Assembly (NCBI GenBank): GCA_902626505.1
Contig: CACOFQ010000002.1
Coordinates: 75,409 to 139,408 of the forward strand
DNA from: an uncultured Marinoscillum sp.
GTDB lineage: Bacteria; Bacteroidota; Bacteroidia; Cytophagales; MED-G16
DNA: 64,000 nucleotides
Direction of reading: 5' to 3'
This document shows, piece after piece, positions 32,830-39,705 of this stretch. Under the pieces are notes generated by a model. The model was not told the origin of the DNA, did no database searches, and saw only the letters and a program-made list of their open reading frames with translations. Positions within the stretch are counted from its first letter, which is position 1. Every line of letters starts with the position of its first letter. Made by a program: the position numbers and the translations under genes.

Positions 32830-34494
32830 TTAATCTGTGATACAACCTTTTGAAGCTGATGAAACTGAATTGATATATTTTTTAACTACTCCTTTATATT
32901 TATTATTAGACTGTAATTTTAAGGAATTTATCCTTTTATCAAACTCTTTTTTATCAATTTTAAGATCTATTTTATTATTTTTTGCATCAATAATAATTTT
33001 ATCATTATTTCTTATAATACAGATAGGCCCCCCGTCATAGGATTCTGGTGTTATATGTCCAACAACGAATCCATGAGATCCACCTGAAAATCTCCCATCT
33101 GTAATTAAAGCCACGTCTTTGCCAATACCTGCTCCAATCACAGCACTTGTTGGTTTTAACATTTCTGGCATTCCTGGACCTCCTTTTGGCCCAGAGTTTT
33201 TGATAACTATTACATCTCCTCTCTGAACCTCACTTTCAATACCTTTTATAGCTTCAAACTCATCTTCATAAACTTTAGCATATCCCTCAAAAATTTCACC
33301 TTCTTTCCCTGTTATTTTTGCAACTGCACCTTCTGGTGCTATATTTCCATATAAAACCTGTATATGACCACTATTTTTAATTGGTTTATCAAAGGACTTA
33401 ATAATTTTAGTATCTATTGAATTTTTAACTCTTTTTAGGTTTTCTTCAAGAGTTTTGCCTGTAACCGTTAGGCAATCTCCGTGTAGATATCCATTCTCTA
33501 GCATATATTTCATCAGTGCAGGAGTCCCACCCATATTATGCAAATCTTCCATCAGAAAATCACCACTAGGTTTTAAATTAGCTATAAATGGAGTCTTGTC
33601 ACTGAAATTTTGAAAATCATCCAAGCTAACTTCAACCCCAACGGACTTAGCCATAGCTATTATGTGAAGGACAGCATTAGTAGATCCTCCTAAAACCATT
33701 ATTATTGATAATGCATTTTCAAAAGCTTTCCTTGTCATGATGTCCTTAGGTCTTATATCTTCTTTAAGTAGGTTATAAATTGATTTACCTATGGTCTGTG
33801 TTTCTGATAATTTATTATTACTTTCAGCTGGATTGGATGAGCTAAATGGTAAACTCATCCCAAGAGCTTCAATAGCAGAAGACATAGTATTTGCGGTATA
33901 CATACCACCACATGCTCCAGGTCCAGGAATACTATTTTTAATTATTCCTTTATATTCTTCTTCTGATATTTTACCTTTTATTTTTTGACCATATGCTTCA
34001 AAAGCTGAAACAATATTTAAACTTTGATCCTTATATTTTCCTGATTTAATTGTTCCTCCATACACTAATATTGATGGCCTATTTAATCTACCTATTGCCA
34101 TCATTGCTCCAGGCATATTTTTATCACATCCAACTACTGATATTAGCCCATCATAAAATTGAGCATTTACTATTGTTTCTATCGAATCAGCAATAATTTC
34201 TCTAGAAATTAATGAATAGGTCATCCCCTTTGTACCATTCGTAATTCCATCACTAACACCTATTGTATTAAATATTAATCCAACTAAATCTTCATCAGAT
34301 ATACTTTTCTTAATTTGAAGCGCTAGATCGTTAAGATGCATATTACATGGATTTCCTTCAAAACCAGTACTTGCAATTCCTATTTGAGCTTTTTTGAAAT
34401 CATCGTATTTTAAGCCAATGCCATATAACATGGCTTGGGCTGCTGGTAGTGAATCATCCTGTGTAATCTTCCTGCTAAATTTATTTAATTTCAT
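32830..34494 (-). CDS. ilvD: Dihydroxy-acid dehydratase
   Basis: Fe-S dehydratase, third step of branched-chain amino acid synthesis. Cluster ligands lie in [11 protein letters not shown] and [16 protein letters not shown]; the C-terminal [19 protein letters not shown] is present. 554 residues, normal. It is the first gene of ilvDBHC-queA-sua5-pgk. The 103-nt region in front holds a hairpin with a T-tract ending 3 nt before the ATG, an inverted repeat and an Ile/Leu-rich reading frame, which suggests attenuation control. Confidence 0.96.
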
Positions 34495-34497
34495 AAT

Positions 34498-34522
34498 AAA
34501 AAAACCATTCTTTCAAGAATGG
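34498..34522 (-). terminator. Attenuator-like hairpin upstream of ilvD
   Basis: Read on the minus strand: CCATTCTT (34522-34515), a 2-base loop, its exact complement AAGAATGG (34512-34505), then seven T (34504-34498), ending 3 nt before the ilvD ATG at 34494. With the outer loop bases unpaired it is still a 7-8 bp stem. No minus-strand gene ends here, so a simple end-of-gene terminator makes no sense; an attenuator for ilvDBHC is the natural reading. The stem is only moderately G+C-rich. Confidence 0.55.
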
Positions 34523-34539
34523 AATTAAGAAATATTTAT

Positions 34540-34578
34540 TTAATAACTATATTAGTTCAAGATAAAAATAGTTATTAA
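34540..34578. repeat. 10-bp perfect inverted repeat in the ilvD leader
   Basis: TTAATAACTA at 34540-34549 and TAGTTATTAA at 34569-34578 are exact reverse complements, with a 19-nt loop. It lies between divergent ilvD and the DUF819 gene, upstream of the attenuator-like hairpin. It could be an alternative leader RNA stem or a protein operator. All A/T except one G/C pair, so RNA stability would be low. Confidence 0.4.
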
Positions 34579-34587
34579 TGTTTTTAT
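34552..34587 (-). other. Possible ilv leader-peptide reading frame (no standard start)
   Basis: On the minus strand the frame ATA AAA ACA ... TAA reads IKTLITIFILN then stop. Six of 11 residues are Ile or Leu. A single G for A in the first codon would give the typical leader start MKT. The frame overlaps one arm of the inverted repeat and ends 29 nt before the hairpin. In a genome this AT-rich, Ile/Leu codons are common by chance, so this is only a candidate. Confidence 0.2.
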
Positions 34588-34597
34588 ATTAAAAGGA

Positions 34598-35824
34598 ATG
34601 ATAACAAATGATGCAGTAATTTTTGGAATTTTAATTACTATCCTTGGAATAGTTTTCTATACATCAAACCTAAAGTCTAAGTTTTGGAAAAGATTCTACA
34701 CAGTTTTTCCAGTTATTCTTGTGTGCTACTTTTTTCCTTCTTTTTTTAATTCGACAGGTATTATTGATTCTAGTAATTCAAATTTATATTTTGTAGCATC
34801 AAGGTATCTTCTCCCGTGCTCTTTAGTTTTATTAACTCTTAGTGTTGATTTGAAAGAAATTTTAAAATTAGGTCCAAAAGCTATAATTATGTTTCTCACT
34901 GGTACTATTGGTATTTTATTAGGTGGTCCGTTTGCATTGCTGATAATAATAAATTTTTTTCCTGATATTATAAATTTTGATTTTAATGAGTTAGGAAGAG
35001 GTATGACCACTATAGCAGGTAGCTGGATCGGTGGTGGAGCTAATCAAGCTGCGATGATGGAGGTATTTAATGTGGATTCAAATTTATTTTCAAAAATGGT
35101 AGCTGTAGATATAATTTGTGCAAATGTCTTACTTGCATTTTTATTAATTGGTGTCAATAAAAGTAAAAAAATTGATAAAAAGCTAAATGCAAATAGTTCT
35201 GCTATTGAAGATATTAAAAAGAGAATTGAAAGTTATAACCAAAGCATAACTAGAATTCCAGAGCTAAGGGATTTAATATTTATTTTGTCAATTGGTTTTG
35301 GTATTACTGGATTATCGCATCTGCTATCAGATATAATTTCTAATTTTATTTCATTGAATTTTTCTTATCTGGAAAAGTATAGTCTAACTTCTAATTTTTT
35401 CTGGTTAGTTATTTTTTCAACTTCAATTGGAGTTGCTTTATCTTTTACAAGGTTAAGGAAACTTGAAGGAGCTGGATCATCAAAAATGGGGAGTATATTT
35501 ATATATATTTTAGTTTTAACTATAGGACTCAAAATGGATTTACTTGCAATTTTTCAAAATCCAGGTTTATTTCTTCTTGGTTTTATTTGGATTGGTTTTC
35601 ATGTTGCGCTATTAATTATAGTTGCAAAATTTATTAGAGCTCCATTCTTTTTTGTTGCTGTAGGTAGTCAAGCAAATGTTGGAGGAGCTGCTTCTGCTCC
35701 AGTGGTTGCTGCTGCTTTTCATCCATCTTTAGCTGCAGTTGGAGTTCTTCTAGCAGTTTTAGGTTATGCTGTTGGAACTTATGCAGCATATATATGCGGA
35801 ATAATTATGCAAAATCTAGTTTAA
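34598..35824 (+). CDS. DUF819-family membrane protein
   Basis: A 408-residue integral membrane protein with about ten hydrophobic helices. The signatures are LLPCSLVLLTLSVDLKEI near residue 73, TIAGSWIGGGANQAAMME and VGSQANVGGAASAPVVAAAFHPSLAAVG near the end, matching DUF819 (YjcL-type). The paired GG.N(Q/V).A motifs look like an inverted-repeat transporter, but the substrate is unknown. Divergent from ilvD with a 103-nt gap; a link to branched-chain amino acids would be speculation. It overlaps the next minus-strand gene tail to tail by 9 nt. Confidence 0.82.
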   Translation: MITNDAVIFGILITILGIVFYTSNLKSKFWKRFYTVFPVILVCYFFPSFFNSTGIIDSSNSNLYFVASRYLLPCSLVLLTLSVDLKEILKLGPKAIIMFLTGTIGILLGGPFALLIIINFFPDIINFDFNELGRGMTTIAGSWIGGGANQAAMMEVFNVDSNLFSKMVAVDIICANVLLAFLLIGVNKSKKIDKKLNANSSAIEDIKKRIESYNQSITRIPELRDLIFILSIGFGITGLSHLLSDIISNFISLNFSYLEKYSLTSNFFWLVIFSTSIGVALSFTRLRKLEGAGSSKMGSIFIYILVLTIGLKMDLLAIFQNPGLFLLGFIWIGFHVALLIIVAKFIRAPFFFVAVGSQANVGGAASAPVVAAAFHPSLAAVGVLLAVLGYAVGTYAAYICGIIMQNLV

Positions 35825-37016: not shown

Positions 37017-39656
37017 ATGAAAAACAATTACAAAATTTTATTACAAATTTTTGTAGTTTCCTTTTTTTCATTCGCTTCATATTCACAATCCCTTATTTCA
37101 GGTGTAGTTGTTGATGGTTCAACAAATGAACCTCTAATTGGAGCTAATGTATCTATTAAGGGGACTACTGATGGAACATTCAGCGGCTTGGATGGTTCCT
37201 TTTCATTTACTGGATCAGGTGATATAGTTCTAGTCTCATACATTGGTTATGAAGAAATAGAACTTAGTAATTCAGGTGATTTAGGAATGATTAAAATGAC
37301 CTCACTTAATACAACCCTTGAAGAGGTTAGAGTTACAGCAGATTATGGTGTTGATAGAGTAACACCAGCTACTTATTCTAATGTTTCAACACAGTATGTA
37401 GAGGAATATGCTGGTACTCAGGAAGTTCCAGAACTATTAAAAATGACTCCTGGAGTTTATACTACTAAAGAAGGAGGAGGTGTTGGTGATTCAAGAGTAT
37501 ATATTAGAGGATTTGCTCAGGAAAATATAACAGTTATGATTAATGGTGTTCCAGTTAATGACATGGAAAATGGTAGAGTTTACTGGTCAAACTGGAATGG
37601 TTTAGGTGATGTTACTTCAGCTATGCAGGTAGTTAGAGGGCTTGGTGCCTCAAAATTAGCAATTGGTTCAATTGGTGGTACAATTAATATTATTACCAAA
37701 TCAATTGATTCAAAAAAAGGGGGATCATATTTACAACAAGTTTCTGATTATGGACAGTTTAAAGAAACTATATCATATAACACAGGTAGAACAAAAAATG
37801 ATTGGGCTGTTTCTTTATTATATTCAAGAACTGATGGAAAAGGTTATGTTGATGGAAGTTACGTAAATGCAAATACTTATTTCGTATCAATCTCAAAAGA
37901 ATTTAATGAAAATAATTCATTAGTTCTAACTGCTGTAGGTGCACCTCAAAAACATGGACAAAGAGATCAGTACTTAACTCCTGAAGAAGTAGATCAATAT
38001 GGTCATAAGTACAATAGAGATTGGGGGTATTTAAATGGTGAAGAATTAAATGGTAGAAATAACTACTATCATAAACCCCATATTGTTTTAAATCATTATT
38101 ATAATATTAATGAAAATACATCATTGAATACTTCAGTTTATGCTTCTTATGGAAAAGGTGGAGGTTCAGGTCCATTAGGATCTTATGGTAGATATTATGG
38201 AAATCAAGACAGGACAGATGATGGATTAATTAATTGGGATGCAGTTGTTAGTGATAATGTTGCAAACGATGGAGGTTCACCAAGTTATGGTTTATCAACT
38301 ACAAAGGGATCATCACTGATTTTAAGGAACTCCGTAAATAACCATAAGTGGTATGGTGTTTTAACTAATCTAGAACACGATTTTAATGATAATCTTTCAT
38401 TAACTGTTGGTTTAGATGCAAGAACTTATACTGGAGAACATTTCAGAGAAGTAAGAAATTTACTTGGAGGTTCTCATTGGGTTGAGTTATATAAGTATAC
38501 TGTGGATTATAGTAGAAATTCAGAGAAATCATCATATGGTGATGGTGGAATTAGAGACCATCTCAAATATGTAAATGAAAATTCAACTTCTTTATTTTTT
38601 ACTAAAACACCAGAGAATCAAAGAATTGCTTATGATAATGATGGAATACATAGATATGCTGGTCTTCATGGTCAGTTAGAATATGCAAATGATAAGGTTT
38701 CTGCATTTGTTGGTGGTTCAGTTTCAAGAACTCAATACGTTAGAGTAGATAGAATGAATTATGCTGGTGTTGAAAATGGAGGGCAAGATCCAACGTCTGA
38801 AAAAGTTAATATTACGGGTCATAATTTAAAAGCTGGATTTAATTTTAACTTTTCAGATCAAAGTAATTTTTATATGAACGCTGGTACTTTCTCAAGAGCT
38901 CCATTCTTCAATTTTGTATTTACTAACTATCAAAACATAGTTGTAGATCCATTAGAAAATGAAAAAGCTAAATCATTAGAAATGGGTTATGGTTTTAAAT
39001 CTCGTAAATTCTCAATGAAGATAAATGGTTACATAACAAAATGGGAAGATAAAGGTTTACTTTCACCTAGGGTAACTATTAATGGTGTTGCAACTAGATC
39101 TGCAATAAGAGGTCAAGATGCTTTACATAAGGGAGTTGAATTGGAATGGAATACAAAATTTACTCCTAAATTAGATATTGGAGGTATAATTTCACTTGGT
39201 GAGTGGAAATGGGCAAATGATGTTCAAGGTGAGATTAGAAGTGATGGTGATTTAGAAATTATCAATGTTGATATATACTCTAATAATATTTATGTTGGTA
39301 ATCATCCTCAAAATCAAATTGGATTTAAAGGAAGATATCAAATAAATAATGTTTTAGATATAGGAGGTCAGTATTTATATAATGCTAAATTATATTCTGA
39401 TTATGATGTTTCTGATAGAGATGACGTCAATCTTGCAAATGTACAACCATTTCAATTAGAGAATTATGGTGTATTAGATATGAGGGTTGGTGCTAAATTC
39501 AATTTAGGTAATTTAGGAGCATATGCTCAAGTTCAGGCATATAACTTATTAGATAAAATTTATTGGGCTAGAGGTGTTGAAGATTCTGGGTCACTTGGTG
39601 AGGGATTTCCAAGTTATGGTAGAACTTTAAACTTTTCTCTAAAACTTAATTTTTAG
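37017..39656 (+). CDS. TonB-dependent outer membrane receptor
   Basis: 879 residues. Signal peptide (MKNNYKILLQIFVVSFFSFASYS), then a carboxypeptidase-regulatory-like domain (ISGVVVDGSTNEPLIGANV, residues about 27-105), a plug domain (about 125-235 with VYIRGFAQENITVMINGVP and GSIGGTINI) and a 22-strand-type barrel ending in the aromatic LNFSLKLNF. No SusD-like gene follows, so a SusCD polysaccharide pair is unlikely; an iron-complex or other small-ligand receptor is more plausible. The next gene is a small lipoprotein beyond a strong terminator. The upstream TAACTTTT at 37000 is one base off the -7 consensus. Confidence 0.9.
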   Translation: MKNNYKILLQIFVVSFFSFASYSQSLISGVVVDGSTNEPLIGANVSIKGTTDGTFSGLDGSFSFTGSGDIVLVSYIGYEEIELSNSGDLGMIKMTSLNTTLEEVRVTADYGVDRVTPATYSNVSTQYVEEYAGTQEVPELLKMTPGVYTTKEGGGVGDSRVYIRGFAQENITVMINGVPVNDMENGRVYWSNWNGLGDVTSAMQVVRGLGASKLAIGSIGGTINIITKSIDSKKGGSYLQQVSDYGQFKETISYNTGRTKNDWAVSLLYSRTDGKGYVDGSYVNANTYFVSISKEFNENNSLVLTAVGAPQKHGQRDQYLTPEEVDQYGHKYNRDWGYLNGEELNGRNNYYHKPHIVLNHYYNINENTSLNTSVYASYGKGGGSGPLGSYGRYYGNQDRTDDGLINWDAVVSDNVANDGGSPSYGLSTTKGSSLILRNSVNNHKWYGVLTNLEHDFNDNLSLTVGLDARTYTGEHFREVRNLLGGSHWVELYKYTVDYSRNSEKSSYGDGGIRDHLKYVNENSTSLFFTKTPENQRIAYDNDGIHRYAGLHGQLEYANDKVSAFVGGSVSRTQYVRVDRMNYAGVENGGQDPTSEKVNITGHNLKAGFNFNFSDQSNFYMNAGTFSRAPFFNFVFTNYQNIVVDPLENEKAKSLEMGYGFKSRKFSMKINGYITKWEDKGLLSPRVTINGVATRSAIRGQDALHKGVELEWNTKFTPKLDIGGIISLGEWKWANDVQGEIRSDGDLEIINVDIYSNNIYVGNHPQNQIGFKGRYQINNVLDIGGQYLYNAKLYSDYDVSDRDDVNLANVQPFQLENYGVLDMRVGAKFNLGNLGAYAQVQAYNLLDKIYWARGVEDSGSLGEGFPSYGRTLNFSLKLNF

Positions 39657-39672
39657 ATACTATCTAATTTTG

Positions 39673-39705
39673 AAAAAGGTCATCAATTTGATGACCTTTT
39701 TTTTT
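39673..39705 (+). terminator. Intrinsic terminator after the TonB receptor
   Basis: AAAAAGGTCATC (39673-39684), loop AATTT, GATGACCTTTTT (39690-39701), then a run of T to 39705. The stem is perfect over 12 bp and lies 17 nt after the receptor stop codon. The clearest terminator in the window. Confidence 0.85.

Follow-up and report, generated by a model that had tools for sequence, protein, structure and literature searches.

A conserved terminator in an attenuator-like position, with no family-wide AUG leader frame, upstream of ilvDBHC in an uncultured Marinoscillum sp. and its relatives

What sets the level of transcription into the biosynthetic operon ilvDBHC in an uncultured Marinoscillum sp., and does a leader peptide take part? 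A preliminary description of the DNA upstream of ilvD, within the window (the whole stretch of 64,000 nucleotides that was analyzed), had recognized the layout of amino-acid attenuation on the minus strand, comprising an Ile/Leu leader peptide, an inverted repeat, and a terminator hairpin. The conserved placement of the terminator bears out one part of this layout, whereas the proposed Ile/Leu leader peptide has a chance composition and overlaps the predicted promoter. The reading that we favor as a whole, with moderate confidence and on the basis of sequence comparisons, is an attenuator-type terminator whose AUG leader peptide was lost or never existed.

The ilvD-DUF819 intergenic region and its terminator

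The genome that includes the window spans 1.55 Mb in 60 contigs and is 89% complete. The ATG codons of ilvD and of a DUF819 gene are 103 bp apart, and Pfam domains at the locus agree with DUF819, IlvD, IlvB, the IlvB small subunit, and IlvC. The features on which the analysis centers are the following:

32830-34494, minus strand: ilvD, with its ATG at 34494; first gene of the operon, in the order ilvD-ilvB-ilvH-ilvC
34598-35824, plus strand: DUF819 gene, with its ATG at 34598; divergent from ilvD
34505-34522, minus strand: terminator stem-loop CCATTC-TTGAAA-GAATGG; core stem paired in all seven family sequences
34498-34504, minus strand: T7 tract of the terminator, followed by ATT and the ilvD ATG

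Homologs of ilvD were present in 8 of the 15 family genomes searched, and the upstream region was intact in seven of these eight, the window's own included; locus L005 (genome G014) was left out of the family alignment because its ilvD is truncated by a contig end. DUF819 lies divergently beside ilvD in all seven family genomes with ilvD upstream sequence, and a partial DUF819 gene was identified in an eighth genome (G003), where ilvD was not found. DUF819 may share control with the ilv operon. Among the fetched loci, adjacency of DUF819 and ilvD was confined to the Marinoscillum-window family, with no DUF819 match in the flanks of the other loci. Alignment of the family's ilvD upstream regions revealed three conserved blocks: the terminator, CTAATATA with G or A as the next base, and TATTTTTA (TACTTTTA in G009).

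The hairpin and the run of seven T ending 3 nt before ilvD, both noted in the preliminary description, were confirmed. When the 103 bp were shuffled 5000 times with dinucleotide content preserved, a terminator having a 6-bp stem and six or more T arose twice (P = 0.0004), and the terminator is retained in all seven family sequences, window included. Its outer pair is U-A in five sequences, A-U in G013, and mismatched in the window. Covarying stems had been suggested as a check: the core terminator stem is kept in 7/7 and hardly varies, its covariation does not exceed that of shuffles (140 of 500 do as well), and the inverted repeat is not kept. Among the frame, the repeat, and the terminator, only the terminator clearly exceeds chance, because the shuffle and folding tests gave weaker or chance-level values for the others. 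Collectively, these observations support a conserved intrinsic terminator just 5' of ilvD in an attenuator-like position, between a predicted promoter and the first structural gene of a biosynthetic operon (ilvD, ilvB, ilvH, and ilvC).

In a scan of the window and 200 kb of G010, 123 genes had an upstream gap of 30 nt or more, and among them ilvD was the only one that combined such a hairpin near its start with a divergent neighbor; at the four further hairpin matches, the neighbor ran in the same direction. The tail pattern GGNTTTTTTTNTTATG (GGN-T7-N-TT-ATG), which was picked after both trpE and ilvD had been seen, matched ten times in the 7 of 15 family genomes searched (six at trpE, four at ilvD, none elsewhere), and its reversed control matched three times. 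The ilvD tails of G000 (the window's genome, one base short) and G013 fail to match the pattern.

The 3' arm of the hairpin holds an ATG (34506-34508, 14-15 nt before ilvD) that is the sole ATG common to all seven sequences within 260 nt upstream. It was considered as a conserved start and rejected, because it shares the ilvD frame in five sequences but not in G000 or G013. Apart from this hairpin AUG, no ATG-led leader frame is common to the seven upstream regions (260 nt each). A conserved ATG for the Ile/Leu frame, the presence of which in relatives had been suggested as a check, was not found; ATG-led frames in its register are limited to short ones in G004 and G013 and one of 66 codons in G010.

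Screening of the window against Rfam returned no match at the gathering threshold, and the two matches near the site (E 3.6 and 4) lie far under the gathering scores. By this measure of Rfam covariance models, a known RNA family or T-box was rejected for the leader.

A near-identical terminator, AAGGTCATCAAT..GATGACCTT, was observed at 39672-39702 and in G010; in each genome it lies before a gene of 143 codons whose product is lipoprotein-like. The product of 37017-39656 is one that we take, from its sequence alone, to be SusC-like; judged from this protein and from the relatives of its IlvD, the window is of Bacteroidota type.

Predicted promoters and the leader of ilvDBHC

The sigma-A box of Flavobacterium psychrophilum is TAnnTTTG at -12 to -5 (PMC9723704), and Bacteroides fragilis has TAnnTTTG at -7 with TTTG near -33, a motif that, according to the same source, could not be found in F. 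johnsoniae (PMC7366714). Comparable features are predicted between ilvD and DUF819:

34563-34570, minus strand: predicted ilv -7 box TATTTTTA, the sole ilv-strand site with at most one mismatch to TAnnTTTG in 7/7 sequences
34590-34593, minus strand: weak -33-like TTTA (TTTC in others), identified by eye 19 nt before the -7 box; in six of seven sequences, absent in G013
34548-34555, plus strand: probable DUF819 -7 box TATATTAG (CTAATATA on the ilv strand), with at most one mismatch to TAnnTTTG in 7/7
34495-34558, minus strand: predicted 64-nt 5' leader of ilvDBHC, placed by assuming a box at -12 to -5 as in F. psychrophilum (PMC9723704)

Sites with at most one mismatch to TAnnTTTG are present in all seven sequences at just two alignment columns, one per strand. 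When columns were shuffled 3000 times, 324 shuffles yielded such a site on the ilv strand and 18 yielded one on both strands. Across 90 upstream regions (the window plus 200 kb of G010), TAnnTTTG occurred 22 times in sense and 12 times in antisense orientation; the forms present here were not enriched in these regions (TAnnTTTA, 26 versus 25; TATTTTTA, 6 versus 8). The DUF819 box has the form TAnnTTAG, as do nine of the ten trp boxes of the family. From the conservation of the boxes and the published box spacing, we infer transcription starts near 34558 for ilv and near 34560 for DUF819, and the two promoters may overlap.

Under the reading that we favor, ilvDBHC would be transcribed from a TAnnTTTG-type promoter with its -7 box at 34570-34563. 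The RNA would start near 34558 and run for about 36 bases before the intrinsic terminator, where part of the polymerases would stop and part would read through, such that partial read-through would set the ilvDBHC level. The A/U-rich sequence of the predicted leader is free of AUG in six of the seven sequences (G013 has the frame MSNTILC-stop), and would offer no AUG frame for the sensing of Ile, Leu, or Val; no conserved short frame combining a start codon with regulatory codons was found within the predicted ilvD transcript. The 67 nt from the predicted start through the ATG fold with a z of -1.15 (30 of 200 shuffles are equally stable), and the consensus fold of the seven leaders comprises the terminator and no second structure, with alternative folds covered non-exhaustively. 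It would be unusual for a biosynthetic operon to be preceded by a terminator that is not regulated, and this hints at a control element that has escaped recognition. If termination is regulated, the locus would be an attenuator stripped of its sensing peptide, which raises the question of what else sets read-through. If it is not regulated, the locus would illustrate the possible erosion of an attenuator in a small genome that keeps the trp attenuator intact.

Control might instead reside at the promoters, with the overlapping ilv and DUF819 promoters being mutually exclusive or answering to a shared regulator and the terminator merely lowering ilv output. The two opposed -7-like boxes, each kept in 7/7, and the constant presence of DUF819 beside ilvD in the seven genomes are consistent with such an arrangement; however, no operator or regulator was recognized and both boxes are predicted, and we consider promoter-level control possible though rather unlikely. 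We suggest with similar reserve, as a doubtful idea, that small-genome Bacteroidota might use a minimal ilvDBHC attenuator without an AUG leader, in which read-through of a terminator abutting the start codon would be set either by an ultra-short CUA-AUA-UAR frame with which the RNA all but begins, or by some factor or promoter switch.

Leader-peptide attenuation from a non-AUG start in the transcribed part is an improbable explanation. The strictly kept CTAATATAR would read CUA-AUA-UAR (Leu-Ile-stop) in 7/7, as CTAATATA is invariant and the next base, G or A, gives UAG or UAA. In addition, an AUA-led frame (AUA-RUU-AUN) is found in five of seven sequences, G007 has GUG-GCU-AAU-AUA-AUU-AUA-UAA (MANIII-stop), and GTG-led leaders occur before ilvD elsewhere (e.g., Elizabethkingia, L076). 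Yet a start codon is lacking in those registers in six of seven sequences, and the consensus fold of the leaders includes no second structure. Furthermore, the conservation of this 8-mer can be explained without translation, because the opposite strand reads TATATTAG, a good -7 box for DUF819, and the kept block is more simply read as that box than as an RNA signal.

Comparison with trpE and with ilvD leaders in other Bacteroidota

Of the 12 family genomes searched, 10 contain trpE, and in all ten it is preceded by a 14-codon, ATG-led leader in which two Trp codons are adjacent (MFKINTWWSFYNSM-stop in the window genome). A box with at most one mismatch to TAnnTTTG lies exactly 4 nt before the leader ATG in 10/10, and the terminator abuts trpE. 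By the box rule applied to ilvD, the trpE RNA is predicted to start at the leader ATG itself, yielding a leaderless leader peptide. The stem that pairs codons of the first-Trp region with bases beyond the stop codon is largely retained (86% of cells), and one of its pairs is changed on both sides in two sequences. The conserved WW leader, the box, the terminator, and the mostly kept stem make it very probable that the family uses leader-peptide attenuation at trpE. The leader in the window genome is at L158:1359-1464 (G000:C16), and nine relatives are alike.

This arrangement parallels rnTrpL/trpL of Sinorhizobium meliloti, for which PMC7298713 describes a 14-codon leader peptide with its ATG at the 5' end of the RNA, although S. 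meliloti belongs to a different phylum and its leader has no bearing on ilvD. The window-genome trpE leader and the ilvD upstream region share a near-identical tail (GG-N-T7-N-TT-ATG) abutting the first gene, but differ in that trpE has the 14-codon ATG leader with two Trp codons and ilvD has none. The shared tail also bears on whether the ilvD hairpin acts after transcription, on the translation start or on mRNA decay, without terminating. Although the hairpin ends 10 nt before the start codon and carries an AUG in its 3' arm, T7 directly follows the G+C-containing stem, and the near-identical tail at trpE stands behind a classical leader peptide. Post-transcriptional action is thus very unlikely in our judgment.

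Members of the HisG and homoserine dehydrogenase families were not found in any of the 12 family genomes searched (of 15), which may reflect auxotrophies, although most of the genomes are incomplete. The frame returned by a leuA-like search resembles an isocitrate dehydrogenase in its sequence.

A survey of 127 ilvD upstream regions in Bacteroidota identified a terminator, by the rule applied, in 29, six of them from the window family; the rule overlooks some terminators (e.g., L031), and the scanning script missed L114 (G004), which contains an N but is included in the family alignments. By hand count, 19 of the other 23 have an ATG- or GTG-led leader, with 38-65% Ile/Leu/Val, before the terminator. 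The four without such a leader are L077, L099, L110, and L118, of which the L118 terminator looks like chance at a gene end. In L099 and L110, as read by eye, a TACTTTT(G/A) box is followed by the terminator, with no ATG ahead of the hairpin; L077 has an ATG 2 nt after such a box, opening a frame that extends into the hairpin. As judged from these single sequences, the window family may not be alone in having a terminator that lacks a clear AUG leader.

Predicted Ile/Leu/Val leaders followed by a terminator before ilvD were observed in many Bacteroidota (L031, L034, L037, L046, L063, L071, L079, and others), and Rfam gave no match at the gathering threshold for the ilvD loci L031, L034, L037, and L063 or for the trp locus L158. 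Flavobacterium (L037), Saprospiraceae (L046), and L031 are comparable to the window locus in that a leader frame and then a terminator lie upstream of ilvD, but they have clear ATG leaders, such as MMQISIIIISVVVVNVIHTSASGML-stop (L037) and MFANIIVVVVVILCTQTV-stop (L031), unlike the window. Strong clues to leader-peptide attenuation before amino-acid operons are reported for F. psychrophilum (PMC9723704). The window ilvD resembles these attenuators in having an intrinsic terminator in the leader of the matching biosynthetic operon, but differs in having neither an AUG leader peptide nor a recognized antiterminator. The attenuator-type terminator without a leader peptide that we favor at ilvD would probably have descended from the ilvD leader-peptide attenuators of other Bacteroidota. 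Titles and abstract openings in the open-access literature covered by the terms used included none on ilvD leaders in Bacteroidota.

Matches to the window IlvD were almost all from Bacteroidota, apart from four loci titled Planktophila (L043), Thalassovita (L053), Anaerolineae (L102), and Sulfuriflexus (L112), whose ilvD is 60-65% identical to that of the window; these are perhaps binning errors.

The Ile/Leu-rich frame and the inverted repeat

34552-34587, minus strand: frame IKTLITIFILN-stop (ATA AAA ACA TTA ATA ACT ATT TTT ATC TTG AAC TAA), judged not to be a leader peptide
34540-34578, no strand assigned: inverted repeat TTAATAACTAT (34578-34568) / ATAGTTATTAA (34550-34540), with 11 perfectly matched bp in the window and 9 in G008

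The sequence of the frame is as the preliminary description gave it, with six Ile/Leu in 11 codons, and the caution expressed there that chance was a real alternative proved apt: an 11-codon frame with at least six Ile/Leu/Val before the stop arose in 29% of 5000 dinucleotide shuffles of the 103 bp (P = 0.29). A wrong base call in the ATA at 34585-34587, which had also been raised, was rejected as unlikely because G000, G008 (IKTLITIFIIN-stop), and G009 (IKTLITTFITN-stop) have ATA in common. Close versions of the Ile/Leu frame are restricted to G008 and G009, and the frame is not retained elsewhere in the family: in G007, a stop lies immediately 5' of it and the end is different, and the ends in G010 and G013 also differ from that of the window. 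Short ATG-led frames occupy the same register in G004 (MFLITIFTKX-stop) and G013 (MVIFTIKLI-stop), and the 66-codon frame of G010 enters it from within the DUF819 gene. With transcription predicted to start near 34558, 29 of the frame's 36 bases would lie 5' of the start and therefore stay untranscribed. The frame looks like a chance reading frame, probably lying in the promoter, and it cautions that Ile/Leu-rich frames in AT-rich DNA are risky leader-peptide calls.

The inverted repeat had been described as a perfect 10-bp repeat whose arms flank the frame. The repeat itself is present and extends to 11 bp, but its left arm (34578-34568) lies inside the frame rather than before it. Perfect inverted repeats of at least 10 bp and at least 11 bp arose with P = 0.086 and P = 0.035, respectively (separate sets of 5000 dinucleotide shuffles of the 103 bp each). 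In the family alignment its arms pair in 77.6% of cells, compared with 76.0% in shuffles, and a conserved hairpin formed by the repeat was rejected on this ground. The 106 nt from 34597 to 34492 fold with a z of -2.83 (3 of 200 shuffles are equally stable), a stability due to the inverted repeat plus the terminator. That IKTLITIFILN, begun at ATA or at a lost ATG, controls the terminator through its Ile/Leu codons is scarcely credible, since the existence of the Ile/Leu-rich frame, the ATG-led frames in its register in G004, G013, and G010, and the better fold of the entire intergenic stretch than of most shuffles are set against a chance-level Ile/Leu/Val content, an ATA shared by three genomes, a start or end altered in G007, G010, and G013, overlap with the predicted promoter box, and a repeat that is not kept.

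A promoter farther upstream, at a TAnnTTTG match identified by eye within DUF819 (TAGGTTTG), was set aside because it sits in the codons of the other strand. The sole ATG frame that follows it in the window is MYRKLFQG-stop, with one Ile/Leu/Val.
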